This document shows, one piece after another, positions 7,643 to 19,725 of a stretch of DNA of 64,000 bases (the first letter of the stretch is position 1; the number at the start of each line of letters is the position of its first letter). Source of the DNA: Thermoplasmata archaeon (GTDB taxonomy: Archaea > Thermoplasmatota > Thermoplasmata > Lutacidiplasmatales > UBA184). The translations under genes were made by a program, and so were the position numbers. The stretch lies in NCBI GenBank assembly GCA_027314165.1, contig DAHVCH010000010.1, forward strand, positions 1 through 64,000. The letters are read 5' to 3'. The notes under the pieces are model-generated. The model was not told the origin of the DNA and did no database searches. It saw only the letters and a program-made list of their open reading frames with translations.

Positions 7643-9112
7643 TCACGAGGCCGGGACCACCTTCACCGACTCGCCGCCGTGGCGGCTGGCCCGGGGCCGC
7701 ACCTCGCAGAAGAGGGGGGTCTGGAACCCGCCGCCCGTGACCAGACACGTCCCGATGGGCAGCCCCTGGATGATCTCGGTCATCCCGTCGGTCAGCCCTT
7801 CGATGCTCTGGGCGATGGCGCGAACGTCCAGGGGGTTGGTCACCTGGAGGATGAGCTGCGTCGCGCACTGGGAGAGGACGCTCTTGTCCACCCGCGCCGG
7901 GCGCTGGCTCACGACGCACATGCCGAGCCCGAACTTCCTCCCCTCGCTGGCGATGGTCTTGAGGATCCTGGAACAGAGGGCCTGGCCCTGCTGAGGACAG
8001 AAGTTGTGGGCCTCCTCCAGGACCATGAAGAGGGGAGGGATCTTCCCCCGCTTCCGCTGCTCGAAGAAGCTCGTCGCGATCCGGGTCACGATGAGCTCCT
8101 GGACGTCGGGGGCGGACCCCCGTAGGTTGATGATCGTCATCTTGCCGGGGGAGACGAGCTCCGAGAGGCTCGTCCCCCGGGGGGCGAGCAGGTGGGTCTC
8201 GTCGACGTACTCGAGCCTCTCGGCGATGGCCTCGAGCAGCGGCGAGCGCTCCTCCCCGTGCCGGGCGGCCTGGATGAGGTCCCGGACCGTGTACTCCGGG
8301 TTGTCCACCGCCACCCGGTCGAGGAGCGCCTTCATCGGCGCGACGAACCCGCGGACGTTGGTGATCCCCATGAAAAGGAGCAGTTCCCGGGCGTCCAGGT
8401 GGCCCAGGGAGAAGGTGAGGGGCTTCGCCTCGGGGTTGAGGTTCGTGTCGGGGGAGAACTCCTGGACCTGGTCGCGGAACCCCTGGGCGTCGATGCCGAA
8501 GCGCGCGTGCTCGCGGGGGGCGTGCTCGGACCGGTAGCGGATCGAGCCGTACTCCCCGTGCGGGTCGATGATGACGCAGGTGACCTTGTGCTTCAGGAAC
8601 TCCTCGAGGAGGACCCCGACCAGGTAGCTCTTCCCGCCGCCGGTCTTCGACAGCACGCTCACGTGCCTCTGGCAGAGGGCGTTGATGTCGAGCTCGACCT
8701 TCAGGTCGTGGTTCCTGAGGAGCCCCAGGTAGGCCGAGGAGCCCCCGTTGCTCTTGAGCCCCAGGACCTGGGCGATCAGGGGCTCGTCGGCCCGGTACAC
8801 CGGCGAGCCGGGACGGAAAGGGATCTGGGGCACCCTCACGATGGGGCCCTCGCGGTACCCGAGGATCACCGAGCGTCCGAAGAAGGTCTCCTCGACAGGC
8901 ACCGCGTCCCCGTGGGCCAGGCGGTTGGCCTTCTCGAGGTTGAGGTCGCTCCTGCGCTCCACGTCGTCCAGCTGGCAGAGGACCGCCCGCTTCGACTCGT
9001 CCACGACCGCCAGGTACTCGCCCCGCTCCAGGGGGCGTGCGAGCGTGAGACGGAAGGTCCCGAGACCGACGTCCCCAAAGATCCGGCCGACCTCCTCGGC
9101 GGGCATCGCCAC
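7643..9112 (-). CDS. herA: HerA-like bipolar DNA translocase/ATPase (DUF87)
   Basis: Hexameric FtsK/HerA-family ATPase; archaeal HerA works with the NurA nuclease in end resection. The 489-aa protein has an N-terminal beta-barrel HAS domain (1 to about 110), Walker A KTGGGKS (about 155-161), DPHGEYG after it, Walker B FMVLEEAHNF (about 365) and a conserved SQRP segment near 400. The start is GTG 9112, or ATG 9106 two codons inside. nurA, mre11 and rad50 are not adjacent, so this is either the genomic HerA without its usual partners or a paralogue. Confidence 0.85.
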   Translation of the reverse strand: MAMPAEEVGRIFGDVGLGTFRLTLARPLERGEYLAVVDESKRAVLCQLDDVERRSDLNLEKANRLAHGDAVPVEETFFGRSVILGYREGPIVRVPQIPFRPGSPVYRADEPLIAQVLGLKSNGGSSAYLGLLRNHDLKVELDINALCQRHVSVLSKTGGGKSYLVGVLLEEFLKHKVTCVIIDPHGEYGSIRYRSEHAPREHARFGIDAQGFRDQVQEFSPDTNLNPEAKPLTFSLGHLDARELLLFMGITNVRGFVAPMKALLDRVAVDNPEYTVRDLIQAARHGEERSPLLEAIAERLEYVDETHLLAPRGTSLSELVSPGKMTIINLRGSAPDVQELIVTRIATSFFEQRKRGKIPPLFMVLEEAHNFCPQQGQALCSRILKTIASEGRKFGLGMCVVSQRPARVDKSVLSQCATQLILQVTNPLDVRAIAQSIEGLTDGMTEIIQGLPIGTCLVTGGGFQTPLFCEVRPRASRHGGESVKVVPAS

Positions 9113-9336: not shown

Positions 9337-10194
9337 ATGGCCGACGCGATCGAAGAACTCGAAAAGAAGAGGGCCGAGTGCAACACCCGTGCCGACGAGC
9401 ACCGGGCGAAGCGTGACAGGCTGAACGCGGAGGCCCATCAGTGGGCCGACAAGCGGGCCGCGGTCGTTGACGAGCTCCGGGCCAAGAGCGCGGAGGCCCA
9501 GGACCACCGCCGGATGCGGGACCAGCTCAACGAGGGGGTCCGAGAGGCGAAGCGGGCCCGGGAAGAGGCGAACCGCAAGGCCGACATGATGGCCGAGAAG
9601 GTCTCCGAGCTCAAGCGCACGCACGCTCCTCGGACGAACGGGCCGCCGGTCTGGCGGATGCGGAAGGAGCTCAAGGAGCTCGAGTTCCGCCACATGACGA
9701 GCTCCCTCACGAAGGACGCCGAGCTTCGGCTCATCGCCGACATGCAGCGGCTCCAGAAGGAGATCAAGTCCCAGGACGACCAGCTCCGGAAGGACCCCGA
9801 GGTGGAGTCGGCCCTCAAGGAGGCCGAGCAGGCCCGGGAAGAGGCCGAGTCGTGCCACAAGGCCGTGGAGGACCTCGCGGTGAGGGCCCAGAAGGAGCAC
9901 GAGTCGATGGTCCTTCTCTTCGAGGAGGTGGACCGCCTCCGTCGGGATGCCGACGAGGTGCACCAGAAGCTCGTCGAGGTCAAGACGGCCAGCGACGACG
10001 AGCACAAGGCCGCGATGGCCGCGATCGAGGAGGTCCGCGACCTCGAGAAGCTGCTCTACGCCGCGAAGACGAAGAGCGGGATCCCGGTGGCCCCGCTCGA
10101 GCCCCCGAAGGAGGAGGACCTCTTCGCGCGGTTCAGGAAGGGCGGGAAGATCTCCACAGAGGACATGCTCGCCCTCCAGAAGAGCGCGCGCTGA
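9337..10194 (+). CDS. Archaeal coiled-coil protein (COG1340-like)
   Basis: 285 aa, almost entirely alpha-helical heptad sequence rich in Arg, Lys, Glu and Ala, with few hydrophobic stretches. The opening pattern (RAECNTRADEHRAKRD, then RMRDQLNEGVREAKR) matches a widespread archaeal coiled-coil family often mislabelled as a phosphatase; no catalytic motif is visible. A conserved RMRKELKELEF segment sits near the middle. A TATA-like TTTATAC at 9266-9272 precedes it. It lies directly upstream of V4R and roadblock genes and may be a structural partner, but its role is unknown. Confidence 0.75.
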   Translation: MADAIEELEKKRAECNTRADEHRAKRDRLNAEAHQWADKRAAVVDELRAKSAEAQDHRRMRDQLNEGVREAKRAREEANRKADMMAEKVSELKRTHAPRTNGPPVWRMRKELKELEFRHMTSSLTKDAELRLIADMQRLQKEIKSQDDQLRKDPEVESALKEAEQAREEAESCHKAVEDLAVRAQKEHESMVLLFEEVDRLRRDADEVHQKLVEVKTASDDEHKAAMAAIEEVRDLEKLLYAAKTKSGIPVAPLEPPKEEDLFARFRKGGKISTEDMLALQKSAR

Positions 10195-10232: not shown

Positions 10233-10240
10233 TTTATATT
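10233..10240 (+). promoter_or_regulatory. TATA box of the V4R-roadblock unit
   Basis: TTTATATT lies 26 bases before ATG 10267, the classical archaeal spacing for a near-leaderless transcript. Confidence 0.7.
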
Positions 10241-10266: not shown

Positions 10267-10668
10267 ATGCGGTGGGTCAGGATCAGCCAGACCGAACTGG
10301 CGAAGATCAAGGACCTCTACGAGGGGGTCATGTCGCACGCCTGCCACGGTCTTTTCTTTCGGGAGGGGGCGGTCCTCGGGAGCGACCTTGCGGAGCAAGG
10401 GCTCAAGAACCGGGAGAGGTACTTCCCCACCGTCGCCGATATCCTTAAGGAGAGGGGATGGGTCGAGGATATTCAGTTCTCGGAGAAGGCGGTTACCGTC
10501 CGGGGAAGTGTGGAGGTCGTACAAAGTGACATTCCGACATGCCACCGCCTCCGCGGTATCATCCGAGAGGTCTACGAGCGCCAGAAGGGCAATCGGGTGA
10601 ATTGCACCGAAGAGCAGTGTGCAAGTCTGGGTAAGGACGCCTGTCAGTTTCGTATCGAGGAGATGTAA
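10267..10668 (+). CDS. V4R (4-vinyl reductase-like) sensor-domain protein
   Basis: 133-aa single-domain protein. The C-terminal signature VNCTEEQCASLGKDACQF (about 113-130) is the cysteine-bearing end of the V4R fold, a small-molecule or metal-binding domain related to the NO-sensing/TRAPP fold. The N-terminal half contains the conserved MSHACHGLFFREGAVLGSDL helix. The start is set by the TATA box at 10233-10240. It is followed 18 bases later by a roadblock/LC7 gene, and the pair is probably cotranscribed. V4R and roadblock domains occur together in signalling, where V4R senses a ligand and roadblock proteins regulate small GTPases; here this is inference. Confidence 0.75.
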   Translation: MRWVRISQTELAKIKDLYEGVMSHACHGLFFREGAVLGSDLAEQGLKNRERYFPTVADILKERGWVEDIQFSEKAVTVRGSVEVVQSDIPTCHRLRGIIREVYERQKGNRVNCTEEQCASLGKDACQFRIEEM

Positions 10669-10686
10669 GGGAGGAAAACGAGAGAG

Positions 10687-11049
10687 ATGATGGCAGCGGC
10701 GGGAAATGTGGGCGCGGTCATCAAGGACCTAAAGGCCCGGATCGGAGCGGTAGCGAGCGCGCTCGTCTCTCGGGACGGGCTGGTACTGTACGCGGACGTG
10801 CCTGCGGGGGTCTACACTGAGACCTTCGCGATCATGTGCGCGACCATCCTCGGGGCGGCGGCGACCGCCAATACGGAGCTGAACCGCTCTCCACCGGAGC
10901 GGATCATCATCGAAGGGGCAGATTCCAAGACCGTCGTTGTCGGGAGCGGGAAGAAGGCGCTCCTGGTGGCCGTGGTCGACCAGAACCAGGACACGAAGCG
11001 TGTCCTGGACGAGGTCGTCAAGGTCGCCGAGATGGTCAAGACGAGCTAG
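10687..11049 (+). CDS. Roadblock/LC7-domain protein
   Basis: 120-aa protein with the roadblock fold pattern: a helix, then ALVSRDGLVLYADVP, a central helix FAIMCATILGAAATANTEL, the strand RIIIEGADSKTVVVGSG and ALLVAVVDQN. Roadblock proteins dimerise and usually act as GTPase regulators or scaffolds (MglB-type). No small GTPase is encoded in the window. It shares the promoter of the V4R gene upstream. The start could be either of the two tandem ATGs (10687 or 10690). Confidence 0.82.
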   Translation: MMAAAGNVGAVIKDLKARIGAVASALVSRDGLVLYADVPAGVYTETFAIMCATILGAAATANTELNRSPPERIIIEGADSKTVVVGSGKKALLVAVVDQNQDTKRVLDEVVKVAEMVKTS

Positions 11050-15778: not shown

Positions 15779-18700
15779 TCAGTCGTCGTCTTCGTCCCGA
15801 CTGGACTTCCCGCCCTTCGGGGAGGACTCTTCCTCGTCCTCATCCTCGTCGAGCGCGGCCTTCTTGGCCTTCCCGCTGGAGGGCTTCTTGGACCCGCCCT
15901 TCGAGCGGCGGCGGTAGACGAAGAACACGATCGCCAGGACCGCGATCACCGCAGCGGAGGCGATGATCGCCACCAGGTACTGCTGGAGCGTGGACTGGTT
16001 GATCGTGACCGTGGTGCAGCCGATGTTGGCGCCGGTCTTGTAGCTGCCCGGGTACTCGTTCGCCGCGGTCGCGTTCCCGCAGATCTTGTACTGGCCCGAG
16101 GCGATACCGCCCGTGATCCCGCCACCGGGGACGGTCCATTTGATCTCGGCACGGTAGCTCACGTTGTAGTGCAGGTTGCACTGGGTGTTGCAGCTCTCGG
16201 CTGAGCTGTTGAGGACCCCGCCGGTGAACCCGTAGAGCGCGCCGTAGCCGATGGTCTTCTGCGAGCCACCGGCGGTGGTCTCGTAGTAGAACTGCACCTG
16301 AGTGCCGTTCGCGATCGACTGGACCCCGCCCACGTCCGTGACGTTGCCATACAGGGTGTACTGCTGTCCCTCGGTGAGGGTGCTCGTGCCCTGCACCGTG
16401 AGGTTGAGCAGCTGCAGGATCGGGGCGATCGTGCTGTTGAGCTGGCAGGTGAACTGGTAGGTCACGTTCGCGAAGTTCCCCGCGGCGTCGGTGATGTTCA
16501 GCGTGAGGTTGTAGGCCGCGCTCTTCACCGTGGATGCGGTCTGGGGCACCGGCAGCTTCGTCTGGGTGTCGTTGGCGGTGCTGCTGTTGAACCAGCGGGG
16601 CGTGAAGGCCGACCAGCCCGCGTTGGTGACGTGCCAGGAGTAGGTGGCGACGGTCCCGTTGTGCGGGTCGAACGACCACTTGTCCACCAGGTTGATCGGG
16701 CAGGAGTTCGCGACGGCGACCCCGCTCGTCACGTTCTTGCCGGCCTGGTTGGCGGGGCTGAAGTAGGAGCCTCCCTGCGGGTGGCCGATGGGGACAGGCT
16801 TCTCCGTGTCGTTGACGATCACGTAGAGGGTAGAGTAGCCCTTGTTCCCGCCGGCATCGAACTCCTGGAGCGCGATGCGGTAGACCCAGCCGTTGACCTT
16901 GTAGGTCGTCCCGTCGATCGTCTGGGAGGTGAGCCAGGCCCCGGCGCCGTTGAACGTGTAGGTCACGTTCCCGTACACGCTCGCCGCCTGCCGGCCGATC
17001 GAGAAGTTGGTGCTCGAGTACGAGGAGGAGTAGGTCGGACCCGCCGAGATGTTCCAGATCGCGACCGAGATGCGCCCGGGGGGGAGCCACGGTTCGGAGG
17101 AGGCGATCGCGTCCGAGCTGTGCGTGGCGTTCATCTGGATCGAGGTGCCCCAGTTCACGTAGAGCAGCGAGTCGTTCGCGCTGATCGACTTGACGTGGGT
17201 GTTGTTGGTCGTGATCATGGGGGTGGGCGCGACGTTGTCGACCAGGACCTCGAAGCTCTGCTGGTTCCGCTGGCCGCCGTTGGCCAGGACGGACAGGTTC
17301 CCGTGCATGAGTCCCGCGGTCCTGTAGGTGTGGTACGCGGTGGTGTTCAACCGGTAGGTGGTGTTGAAGGCCCCGTCGCCGAAGTCCCAGGTGTAGCTGG
17401 TCGCGTTGAACCCGCTCGGGAAGAGCGAGCCCGCCGAGGAGAAGCTCACGTTCTGGTTCTCACCGACGATGACGGTGTAGTTCGAGTGCGTCGGTCTGAC
17501 CACGTTGGTCTTGTTCGCGAAGGCGAAGTTCGGGGAGTTGATGTTCACCACGGCCGTCACGTTCTGGATCTTGACCAGGTTGAACGTGGCGGTCCCGTTG
17601 GTCGCTCCGTTGGGGGAGTGCTGGGACGAGAGCGTGAACGAGGACCAGGTGCCGCCCGGACCCGCCGGGGTGAGCGAGGTGCCCGCCGGGACGGGGGTGT
17701 TGGCCTGCAGGACCCAGTTGGTGGGGAGCTGGACGGTGTAGGTCAGGGCCTCGGTGGACATCGGGTAGCGGAAGCCCATCGTCAGGGTGTGCGTGGAGGT
17801 CTTGGTGGTCAGGCCCTTCGCGAGCTGGTAGGACTCGTTGGTCCCGAACGCGAACTTGCTCGCGCTGGAGAGCGAGAGGTCGGAGGGGGTGGGGCCGTCG
17901 TGGAAGGCCACCGCGCCCGTCTGGTTCCCGTACTCGGTGTAGCTCGTCGCGTTGACCATCAGGTTCGCCTGCTGGGCGGGGTAGATCGCACCGCTGTCGT
18001 TGAGCCAGTTCTCGAAGGCGTGCCACGCGGTGGGGGTCGCGTTGAGCGCGCCGCCCGCGAAGTCCATCCCGACCTGGGAGTAGAGGTCGCTCACGTAGGC
18101 GTTGGGCAGCTGGGCGATGGTGCTGCCTCCCGAGAGGCTCTCCGTGCTGTTGACCCAGGCGTTAGCGAAGGAGGCGTTGAACGCGAGGTTCGTGCTCTCC
18201 GTCGTGGGGGGGCTCCCGGCCCAGGGGGACGTCAGGATCGAAAGGTCCTGGGTGCGCTGGGTGGGGGAGACCGTGAAGTAGGTCCAGGCGGGGGAGTTCC
18301 CCTGCGGGGCCACCAGCAGCGCGAAGTGCGTGGGGCCCGCGCGGTTGCCGGTCAGTCCGCTGTAGCTGCCGAACTGGAAGAAGGTGTTCCTGGCGTTGGT
18401 CTGGGACGCCGGGATCGGGAAGTTGTAGGCGTTCGAGTTCGTGAGGTCATACAGGGTGAGGTTCGTCCCGTTGTAGAACGTCGCCTGCCCCTGGGGGACG
18501 AAGAATCCCTGGACCAGGTAGGAGGCGAGGGTGATGTTGAACACGTTGCGGGCCGCGGGAACGGTGACCTGGCTGTAGTTGGTCTCCGTCGAGCCGTTGT
18601 AGAGGGTGCTCGCCGCGTAGACCGTCCACGTCCCCGCTGGGAGGTTGTGGAAGGAGTACGACGAGACCGCGGTCTGCTGCGCGAGAACGAGGCCGGGGAA

Positions 18701-19231
18701 GGCCGGGTCCAGGACCTGGATCGCGGTGGTGTTCCCCGCGTTCGAGCCCAGGGTGTTGTTGATCGCGCCCGTGAGCGTGAAGGTCATGGGGAGCGCCGTG
18801 AGCCCACTGAGGTAGGTGATGTACCCACTGTTGAGCTGGCTCTGCGTGGCGTTGAACGTCGAGGAGCTGCCGCCTCCGGGGAGGACCGCGATGGGGATGG
18901 AGGCGCCGCTCGATCGGTCGACCTCGGCCGGAACGGAGACCGTAAACCAGCCCGGGAAGAGCCAGCAGGTCTGGCCGAAGACGTCCTTCTGGCCGTTCAC
19001 GAAGGTGTAGACGCCGCCCAGGGAGGTGGTCCCCGTGCAGCTCTCGCCGGTCGCTCCGACCGTGAGCGTCACGTTGACCCCGACGGGGGCAAAGCTCCCT
19101 CCGGCGGTTCGGACGATGACGGATACGGTGGCATTGCTCGCGGGCATCGCTTGGCCGGTCGGGGCCATAATGCTCACAAACAACATCACCAGGGTGGCGG
19201 CAAGGGCCCAGCGCTGCGCCCCGGATGGCAT
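15779..19231 (-). CDS. Large secreted, membrane-anchored surface protein with a PKD domain
   Basis: 1150 aa from ATG 19231. A signal peptide (ALAATLVMLFVSIMAPTGQA) begins near residue 8. The ectodomain is rich in Asn, Ser, Thr, Gly and Tyr and carries dozens of N-x-S/T sequons. It contains a carboxypeptidase-regulatory-like segment near the start and a PKD repeat (TSYTWDFGDGAFNTTY) near the middle. It ends in a single transmembrane helix (LVAIIASAAVIAVLAIVFF), a basic stop-transfer RRRSKGG and a very acidic DEDEDEEESSPKGG tail. It is probably an S-layer or adhesion-type protein, but no enzymatic domain is recognised. The start is supported by a TATA box at 19296-19304. The frame is open further upstream, but that part lacks protein-like sequence. 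Confidence 0.85.
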   Translation of the reverse strand: MPSGAQRWALAATLVMLFVSIMAPTGQAMPASNATVSVIVRTAGGSFAPVGVNVTLTVGATGESCTGTTSLGGVYTFVNGQKDVFGQTCWLFPGWFTVSVPAEVDRSSGASIPIAVLPGGGSSSTFNATQSQLNSGYITYLSGLTALPMTFTLTGAINNTLGSNAGNTTAIQVLDPAFPGLVLAQQTAVSSYSFHNLPAGTWTVYAASTLYNGSTETNYSQVTVPAARNVFNITLASYLVQGFFVPQGQATFYNGTNLTLYDLTNSNAYNFPIPASQTNARNTFFQFGSYSGLTGNRAGPTHFALLVAPQGNSPAWTYFTVSPTQRTQDLSILTSPWAGSPPTTESTNLAFNASFANAWVNSTESLSGGSTIAQLPNAYVSDLYSQVGMDFAGGALNATPTAWHAFENWLNDSGAIYPAQQANLMVNATSYTEYGNQTGAVAFHDGPTPSDLSLSSASKFAFGTNESYQLAKGLTTKTSTHTLTMGFRYPMSTEALTYTVQLPTNWVLQANTPVPAGTSLTPAGPGGTWSSFTLSSQHSPNGATNGTATFNLVKIQNVTAVVNINSPNFAFANKTNVVRPTHSNYTVIVGENQNVSFSSAGSLFPSGFNATSYTWDFGDGAFNTTYRLNTTAYHTYRTAGLMHGNLSVLANGGQRNQQSFEVLVDNVAPTPMITTNNTHVKSISANDSLLYVNWGTSIQMNATHSSDAIASSEPWLPPGRISVAIWNISAGPTYSSSYSSTNFSIGRQAASVYGNVTYTFNGAGAWLTSQTIDGTTYKVNGWVYRIALQEFDAGGNKGYSTLYVIVNDTEKPVPIGHPQGGSYFSPANQAGKNVTSGVAVANSCPINLVDKWSFDPHNGTVATYSWHVTNAGWSAFTPRWFNSSTANDTQTKLPVPQTASTVKSAAYNLTLNITDAAGNFANVTYQFTCQLNSTIAPILQLLNLTVQGTSTLTEGQQYTLYGNVTDVGGVQSIANGTQVQFYYETTAGGSQKTIGYGALYGFTGGVLNSSAESCNTQCNLHYNVSYRAEIKWTVPGGGITGGIASGQYKICGNATAANEYPGSYKTGANIGCTTVTINQSTLQQYLVAIIASAAVIAVLAIVFFVYRRRSKGGSKKPSSGKAKKAALDEDEDEEESSPKGGKSSRDEDDD

Positions 19232-19295
19232 TCTTCGTTCACTCCTTCGGTTCGATGGCCCCCTATCGAGGGCCGCGCGGCCCAATTTGGCCCCG

Positions 19296-19304
19296 TTTAT
19301 ATAG
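19296..19304 (-). promoter_or_regulatory. TATA box of the surface-protein gene
   Basis: The minus strand reads CTATATAAA, the strongest TATA-like element in the window, about 65 bases before ATG 19231, giving a leader of roughly 40 nt. Confidence 0.75.
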
Positions 19305-19725
19305 TTTGACTGAGGACGGCGACCGAATCGCCCCACGACCGCGCGAGACCCCCCCAGGGGGCGCTGGGGCCCCCCAAGTGTCGGGGAGGGATAGCCTAGT
19401 CGACCGGATCGGAAGAGGTCGAGTCGGTCCCGTTGGGTGGAGGCTCCTCCGAGGAGCCCACAGGGTCGGTCGAGGGGGACGGAGCGGGATCCGTCGTGGC
19501 CGTCTCGGGCGTACCGGCCTGGTCCCTCGGTCAGGCAGAACTGGGGCTGCGACCTGCGCGAAGCGCCCATTGGGGCGGGGGGGTGCGCGCTGCACAGGCC
19601 CACAGCACCGTTCGGGTCCTGCGAGCGGGCTCTGTGCGGCCCTTCCTTGGTGCGCGCCTGGCATCGGCCAGGGGGAGGGGAACGACGCCGCAGCATTGAT
19701 GGGGACCTAGACCCATCCGTAAGGC
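19305..19725. other. Intergenic region between two divergent surface-protein genes
   Basis: About 420 bases with no convincing gene. The open frames here are arginine/proline-rich shadows. It includes a G/C-tract inverted repeat near 19350-19376 (GGGGGC and GCCCCC arms). No clear TATA element was found for the plus-strand gene at 19726. Confidence 0.5.

Follow-up and report, generated by a model that had tools for sequence, protein, structure and literature searches.

Several described systems contain relatives of the two proteins considered here. In TRAPP, the Bet3 and longin subunits jointly form the Rab site (PMC10152722). The V4R domain was named as the likely ancestor of Bet3 in 2008 (PMC2253512). 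Roadblock proteins are described as kin of the longin subunits in PMC10933270, which also presents structures of Asgard TRAPPC3, roadblock and Rab proteins. According to the same source, the small GTPase genes of MK-D1 are generally not located in operons with the roadblock, longin and TRAPPC3 genes. MglA is reported to be mostly coupled to MglB (404/488 sequences; PMC4316618). Roadblock proteins have also been recorded in archaeal type IV pilus loci (PMC4858521), and Rab-like proteins in a Thermoplasmatales archaeon and an Aciduliprofundum (PMC4915359). In sensors of the PoxR/MopR type, zinc is held by three cysteines and one glutamate (PMC10715001). For MsvR, redox-dependent DNA binding is reported to change with the substitution C206A, whereas it is less clear what C232 and C240 do (PMC3729527).

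The window, a 64,000 nt stretch of contig DAHVCH010000010.1 from a Thermoplasmata archaeon, contains a V4R gene followed by a roadblock gene. Unlike the arrangement reported for MK-D1, the V4R gene shares a unit with the roadblock gene, and a sister V4R adjoins GTPases. No report of V4R–roadblock or V4R–GTPase gene pairs in Thermoplasmatota was found in the open-licence literature searched. Within that literature, the original prediction that no such system had been described holds for the gene arrangement; it does not hold for the kinds of protein involved, which have been studied in Asgard archaea (PMC10933270).

Organization of the V4R/roadblock gene pair

The two genes are arranged in tandem, with boundaries exactly as originally predicted. 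The unit comprises the following features:

10233–10239, plus strand: TATA-like element TTTATAT, read from the sequence, 34 nt 5′ of the V4R start codon
10267–10668, plus strand: V4R-domain gene, 133 aa, single domain (Pfam V4R, E 5e-11; structure model)
10540–10644, plus strand: codons of the predicted zinc site C92, E115, C118 and C126 within the V4R gene (MopR alignment)
10669–10674, plus strand: GGGAGG, located in the 18-nt gap and probably serving the roadblock gene as ribosome-binding site
10687–11049, plus strand: roadblock/LC7 gene, 120 aa, MglB-like (Pfam Robl_LC7, E 2.9e-10; fold)

The region upstream of the V4R gene was compared among 73 relatives. The A+T fraction rises to 0.84–0.92 at positions −32 to −29 relative to the V4R start, whereas most positions farther away have about 0.2–0.3, the surroundings being otherwise G+C-rich. 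A TATA-like hexamer is found in 34 of the 73 upstream stretches (−50 to −16), compared with 13 of 2372 control windows of equal length inside or just after the V4R gene. Because of the 18-nt spacing, the TATA-like element and the A+T peak in the relatives, the V4R and roadblock genes look like one transcription unit behind a conserved TATA box, in agreement with the shared promoter originally predicted. The genome of the window (G000) is 85.7% complete and contains one Pfam match to V4R and one to roadblock, both in the window.

Conservation of the gene pair

A scan of public genomes yielded the 73 loci of the relatives sample; two of these end inside the V4R gene, which leaves 71 usable. The roadblock gene directly follows the V4R gene on its 3′ side in 70 of the 71 relatives, with a gap of 0–28 nt (median 15), and L070 is the sole relative whose V4R gene has no adjacent roadblock gene. 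The V4R protein of one relative (L002) is identical to that of the window. The profiles used in the searches were prepared from these loci by leaving out near-copies and then choosing by hand: profile A1 (V4R) consists of the window's sequence and those of 32 of the 71 relatives, and profile A2 contains 25 of 70 plus the window.

A wider sample covered 294 genomes of the phylum, each at least 80% complete. The window-type V4R, called at E≤1e-15, is present in 29 of the 294 genomes. All of these but G057 and G067 have the roadblock gene next to it, giving 27 of 29. Outside the window, 21 adjacent pairs were read, and they represent 15 families. The outer neighbours mostly change between these families, while the V4R–roadblock order persists. 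The conservation in relatives on which the original prediction hinged is thus found for the pair. In the set of 41 genomes around that of the window, V4R was matched in 37 and roadblock in 39; these counts take in weaker matches to proteins of other kinds, one example being the V4R-DUF835 protein of G028. Three genomes of one genus of the window's family (G011, G253 and G289; 93–97% complete) gave no match to the window-type V4R, and for this reason the pair seems dispensable in that genus.

Several observations were made on individual loci. The record of L063 (DAIDCO010000002.1) is titled 'bacterium' and bears an archaeal V4R–roadblock locus; the assembly is probably misnamed. A protein with two CBS domains is encoded directly 5′ of the pair in families f9, f15 and f16 (L112, L118 and L119; Pfam), and a CBS-domain protein, recognized by sequence only, occupies the same position in L129 and L130. 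In a genome of the family that lacks the pair, a gene (L212:2261-3088) encodes a protein of different architecture, whose C-terminal part is V4R-like and whose N-terminal region appears ACT-like by eye.

The V4R protein

The V4R protein of the window scores 43 bits against Pfam V4R (PF02830; cut-off 31), which is its only Pfam match over the cut-off. A PDB sequence search with the single protein returned no V4R structure (best E 0.24), and with profile A1 MopR reached only E 0.47. Since these sequence and profile searches were weak, the V4R assignment rests on the Pfam match and the fold search.

The structure model of the protein (pLDDT 84.6, pTM 0.74) has its best fold match in the V4R protein MJ1460 (2oso; Z 12.7, rmsd 5.1, 103 aligned residues). 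The phenol-sensor domains of PoxR, DmpR and MopR follow with Z 11.3–12.5, PoxR 5frx giving Z 12.5 with rmsd 3.2 over 114 residues. The match to this fold does not single out ligand sensors: subunit D of cellulose synthase is nearly as close (3a8e, Z up to 11.9) and H-NOX domains reach Z of about 9. The Bet3-type fold of the TRAPP core is also shared, at lower similarity than PoxR: Bet3/TRAPPC3 chains give Z 8.0–8.8, among them Bet3 2j3w_E (Z 8.8, rmsd 3.8, 112 aligned) and Thor-TRAPPC3 7yh3_D (Z 8.4, rmsd 3.4, 107 aligned).

Residues 83–128 of profile A1 align with MopR 146–191 over 46 columns free of gaps; the match itself is weak (E 0.47), and the evidence for a zinc motif is the register of the alignment and not the E-value. 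In this register C92, E115, C118 and C126 fall on MopR positions 155, 178, 181 and 189, which we take to be the zinc-ligand positions of MopR. All four residues are present in 22 of 22 roadblock-paired V4R proteins. C113 is found in 16 of the 22, and the additional set H24, C26 and H27 is not conserved (6, 10 and 11 of 22, respectively). The V4R protein is thus predicted from its sequence to bear a Cys-Glu-Cys-Cys zinc motif of the PoxR/MopR type, and the one-domain V4R protein with a conserved cysteine pattern that was originally described is recovered. The fold and the motif in the MopR register are common to PoxR, MopR, DmpR, MJ1460 and the window's protein. Unlike PoxR, MopR and DmpR, the window's V4R is a single domain lacking an AAA+ or DNA-binding output, and its neighbour is a separate roadblock protein.

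The best NCBIfam match of the V4R protein is MsvR (E 7.8e-5), with 22.5 bits against a cut-off of 220. MsvR contains a V4R domain with the same cysteine spacing and, in contrast to the 133-aa single-domain protein of the window, a helix-turn-helix domain. A transcription factor of the MsvR kind was ruled out, as there is no DNA-binding domain and the MsvR model is matched far below its cut-off.

The roadblock protein

The roadblock protein of the window scores 40.2 bits against Robl_LC7 (PF03259; cut-off 23). In the model of the two proteins read through as one chain, the fold of the roadblock part is closest to MglB and the Asgard roadblock proteins. The MglB fold is therefore a feature shared with the MglA/MglB system, whereas the neighbour of the roadblock gene is here a V4R gene, and no GTPase gene is found in any of the 73 relatives' V4R loci. 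The pairing also differs from that of the TRAPP core, in which Bet3 is combined with longin subunits; by both profile and fold, the neighbour of the window's V4R is a roadblock protein.

On the tree the paired roadblock proteins group together, with 3 label changes where shuffling gives 15.4. Their placement as one clade is not rejected (AU p 0.16), the tree containing several long branches. Of the paired roadblock proteins, 16 of 21 have the cysteine of an MCA motif in the central helix; of the unpaired ones, 1 of 23 has it.

In family f15 (L119, L129, L130 and L131) the N-terminal helix of the paired roadblock proteins seems by eye to be missing; it might be replaced by a helix of the partner. 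A second, unpaired roadblock protein is encoded in L139, L151, L152 and L153, which belong to genus g6 of the window's family and to genomes that have no detectable Ras-family GTPase.

Co-occurrence with Ras-family GTPases

The original prediction regarded the pair as a module acting on a distant GTPase. The genome of the window does hold one strong Ras/Roc-family GTPase gene outside the locus (G000:C11:196912-197415; PF08477, E 3.5e-28). Its nearest PDB sequence is the Thorarchaeota Rab 7ezb (E 2.5e-24), followed by Rab8A. The relatives sample includes 20 genomes of the window's family from outside genera g1 and g2. The V4R gene is present in 18 of them, each time beside a roadblock gene. In none of the 20 was PF00071 matched at E≤1e-3, and at E≤0.01 PF08477 gave one sub-cut-off match in each of four genomes, in ORFs of 698–834 aa.

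In the phylum sample, Ras-family GTPases were called by PF00071 at E≤1e-8. Among the 29 genomes with the window-type V4R, 17 have a Ras-family GTPase and 12 have no detectable one; 59 of the 265 genomes lacking this V4R have one. The window-type V4R is thus commoner in genomes with a GTPase (17/76) than in the others (12/218; Fisher p 8e-5, uncorrected for kinship), an excess with which an ancestral role for a GTPase would be compatible. Each of the 15 pair-bearing families, except f3 with its one genome, includes a sampled genome with a Ras-family GTPase. The pair is enriched together with GTPases, yet a detectable GTPase is not needed. The predicted co-occurrence is accordingly seen as enrichment and not as dependence. 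Of the proposed action on a distant GTPase, the presence of one Rab-like GTPase elsewhere in the genome stands, and the 12 V4R genomes with no detectable GTPase speak against such action as the defining role of the pair. An obligate regulator of a GTPase is ruled out by this distribution; regulation in GTPase-bearing genomes is considered below.

A sister V4R subfamily beside Rab-like GTPases

Reading of the GTPase neighbourhoods revealed that V4R genes adjoin many of the Rab-like GTPase genes. A V4R gene or a V4R-DUF835 gene lies beside a Rab-like GTPase gene in L160, L161, L162, L164, L167–L181, L191 and L202, the V4R being fused to DUF835 in L167. Profile A4 was built from 23 GTPase-adjacent V4R sequences, with the V4R of the window's own genome kept out; Pfam V4R matches 20 of the 23 seeds at E≤0.01. 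Strong A4 matches, at a cut of E≤1e-18 that was chosen after the match list had been viewed, occur in 32 of the 294 phylum genomes, every one of which has a Ras-family GTPase. The V4R lies within 1 kb of such a GTPase on the same strand in 30 of these genomes, and within 91 nt in 27 of the 30; the GTPase positions used here were picked near V4R matches, among the matches listed. Seeds of A4 had been supplied by 17 of these 30 genomes. Of the 15 non-seed genomes, 13 show the adjacency, five of which (G000, G237, G249, G281 and G287) had been seen to be adjacent before A4 was built, and the exceptions are G039 and G095. At E≤1e-8 the profile matches 52 genomes; of the 20 weaker ones, some of whose matches are other V4R kinds or cross-matches to the window's kind, only G055, G217 and G239 have a Ras-family GTPase. 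No strong A4 match was obtained in 44 of the 76 genomes with a Ras-family GTPase. The 30 adjacent genomes represent 15 families, and G028, G031, G034 and G036 add four more, so that a V4R or V4R-DUF835 protein beside a GTPase is known from 19 families.

The window's own genome has a similar arrangement. A gene for a DUF835-like protein, with DUF835 below the Pfam cut-off, lies directly 5′ of the single GTPase gene (locus L076). Pfam found no V4R in this protein, and profile A4, of which it is not a seed, matches a V4R-family stretch (G000:C11:198155-198508, E 2e-19). The cysteines of the stretch are confined to its first half, and it therefore does not have the zinc set.

In the V4R tree, the roadblock-linked and GTPase-linked proteins are separated by a branch with 100/99 support. 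The roadblock-linked group itself is weak (80/63) and includes L132, a V4R that has no adjacent roadblock. The GTPase-linked V4R of the window's genome forms a long branch. The profiles of the two groups are related (hhalign probability 97%). The GTPase interpretation is partly right and suits the sister V4R better than the V4R of the window.

Association with KaiC and DUF835 proteins

A third kind of V4R gene is followed by a gene for a KaiC-like ATPase in L121 and L122 (Pfam). This kind also occurs with a DUF835 protein, in L122 by Pfam and in L120 by sequence. KaiC-linked V4R proteins fall on the roadblock-linked side of the main split in the tree. In G055, one run contains genes for a roadblock protein, a V4R protein, a KaiC-GTPase fusion and KaiC (L207, G055:C86, 1405-4682, minus strand). 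Upstream of this run lies a 155-aa ORF with no Pfam match. In G057 the run consists of V4R, a KaiC-like gene (by sequence), a KaiC-GTPase fusion and roadblock, and in G076 of roadblock, a KaiC-GTPase fusion and a KaiC-like gene. The GTPase parts of the fusions match Ras and Arf models about equally and are for this reason not clearly Rab-like. The domains met in these neighbourhoods look like a shared, reshuffled signalling set of the phylum.

Proposed function of the pair

We propose that the two genes encode a sensor-plus-platform unit for which a GTPase is optional, with a probability of roughly 0.5. Our best reading is that this unit was drawn from a pool of V4R, roadblock, Rab-like and KaiC genes that resembles TRAPP in parts. 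The V4R protein is probably a homodimer, and its predicted zinc-braced pocket probably takes a small, likely hydrophobic molecule, by analogy with PoxR and MopR, which sense phenols. For the roadblock protein, an MglB-like homodimer is likewise probable. The two proteins are likely to bind each other, since their genes appear to share one promoter and have a fixed neighbourhood. It is also plausible that a Bet3-type protein would touch a roadblock-type one, because Bet3 and longin subunits form the Rab site of TRAPP together. The ligand state, or the redox state, of the V4R dimer would alter which client is bound to the roadblock platform. This client need not belong to the Ras-family GTPases: since none is detectable in many pair-bearing genomes of the family, a GTPase would be at most an optional client where present.

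The pair might instead be an exchange factor or a GTPase-activating protein for the single Rab-like GTPase of the genome, comparable to TRAPP with Rab1 or MglB with MglA. The MglB fold of the roadblock protein, the strong GTPase of the window's genome with its nearest relative in the Thorarchaeota Rab, the GTPases sampled in all pair families but f3, and the runs of G055 and G057, which unite V4R, roadblock and a KaiC-GTPase fusion, are consistent with such a role. We nevertheless consider it unlikely, since a Ras-family GTPase is undetectable in all 18 pair-bearing family genomes outside g1 and g2 and in 12 of the 29 phylum genomes with the V4R, GTPase genes are missing from the relatives' loci, and the genome's own GTPase adjoins another protein of the V4R family.

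It is likewise improbable that the V4R senses redox state or metal, in the manner of MsvR, and not hydrophobic ligands, with the roadblock protein relaying the signal. The spacing of C92, C118 and C126 (26 and 8 residues) is that of C206, C232 and C240 in MsvR, which is also the best NCBIfam match despite its low score, and the MCA cysteine is largely confined to paired roadblock proteins. The same residues are, however, in register with the MopR zinc ligands, a DNA-binding domain is missing, and the H24/C26/H27 set varies across the paired V4R proteins. Mere co-expression, with products that make no contact and each serve other partners, is quite unlikely. The AlphaFold read-through model of the V4R and roadblock proteins (pTM 0.49, weak linker region) has no confident interface, which would suit this explanation but is equally compatible with contact; G067, G057 and L070, in its favour, carry a V4R gene that has no roadblock gene beside it. 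Against it stands the V4R–roadblock order, retained in 27 of 29 phylum genomes and read in 15 families, among which the outer neighbours are mostly not the same.

TRAPP is a Rab exchange factor, whereas the V4R–roadblock pair is conserved with no need of a GTPase. As in TRAPP and the Asgard TRAPPC3, roadblock and Rab proteins, a neighbour from the roadblock superfamily and, in many genomes, Rab-like GTPases are present here too. It is tentatively suggested, as a possibility that we hold to be somewhat doubtful, that Thermoplasmatota, outside the Asgard archaea, possess in gene pairs and operons the functioning parts of a primitive TRAPP-like system, namely Bet3-related V4R with either a roadblock protein (15 families) or a Rab-like GTPase (19 families), together with the combined run of G055, and that the pair of the window represents a branch that lost the GTPase or does not need it. 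If this is true, a sensor-regulated Rab switch with a V4R/roadblock regulator would predate both eukaryotes and Asgard archaea. The question addressed is how Bet3-type and longin-type parts came to work together and with Rab. The domains are ordinary; their deeply kept pairing is unexpected and makes the question of the origin of TRAPP testable. The V4R–roadblock and V4R–GTPase pairs are small, expressible pairs from outside the Asgard archaea that can be used to ask whether platforms and Rab-like switches were under the control of Bet3-type proteins before eukaryotes arose. The pair-bearing genomes in which no Ras-family GTPase is detectable offer a natural experiment on V4R and roadblock acting alone.

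Genes neighbouring the pair

A coiled-coil gene upstream of the pair had originally been counted as a third member of the unit. The gene at 9337–10194, 5′ of the V4R gene, matches Pfam DUF7121 (E 1.9e-31) and appears coiled-coil by eye. A DUF7121 coiled-coil gene lies upstream on the same strand in 68 of the 73 relatives' loci, but directly upstream of V4R (<250 nt) in only 13; in 55 it is farther off, with a median gap of 850 nt. In five loci that were read, a HAD-like gene, recognized by a sequence motif, sits between the coiled-coil gene and V4R. No match to the coiled-coil gene was obtained in 5 of the 73 loci; none lies around the pair in L066, L068 and L070, or around the distant-family pairs examined (blastp, E≤1e-6). 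Since direct adjacency is limited to the 13 loci, a three-gene unit is ruled out; the three-gene order is not kept, and the coiled-coil gene is not a member of the unit.

A gene encoding a HerA-like ATPase (7643–9112, minus strand) is located upstream of the coiled-coil gene in the window and in most loci of the family that reach this position. A 1305-aa ORF on the minus strand of the window (15779–19696) appears by eye to encode a surface protein whose C-terminus bears a transmembrane segment and an acidic tail.
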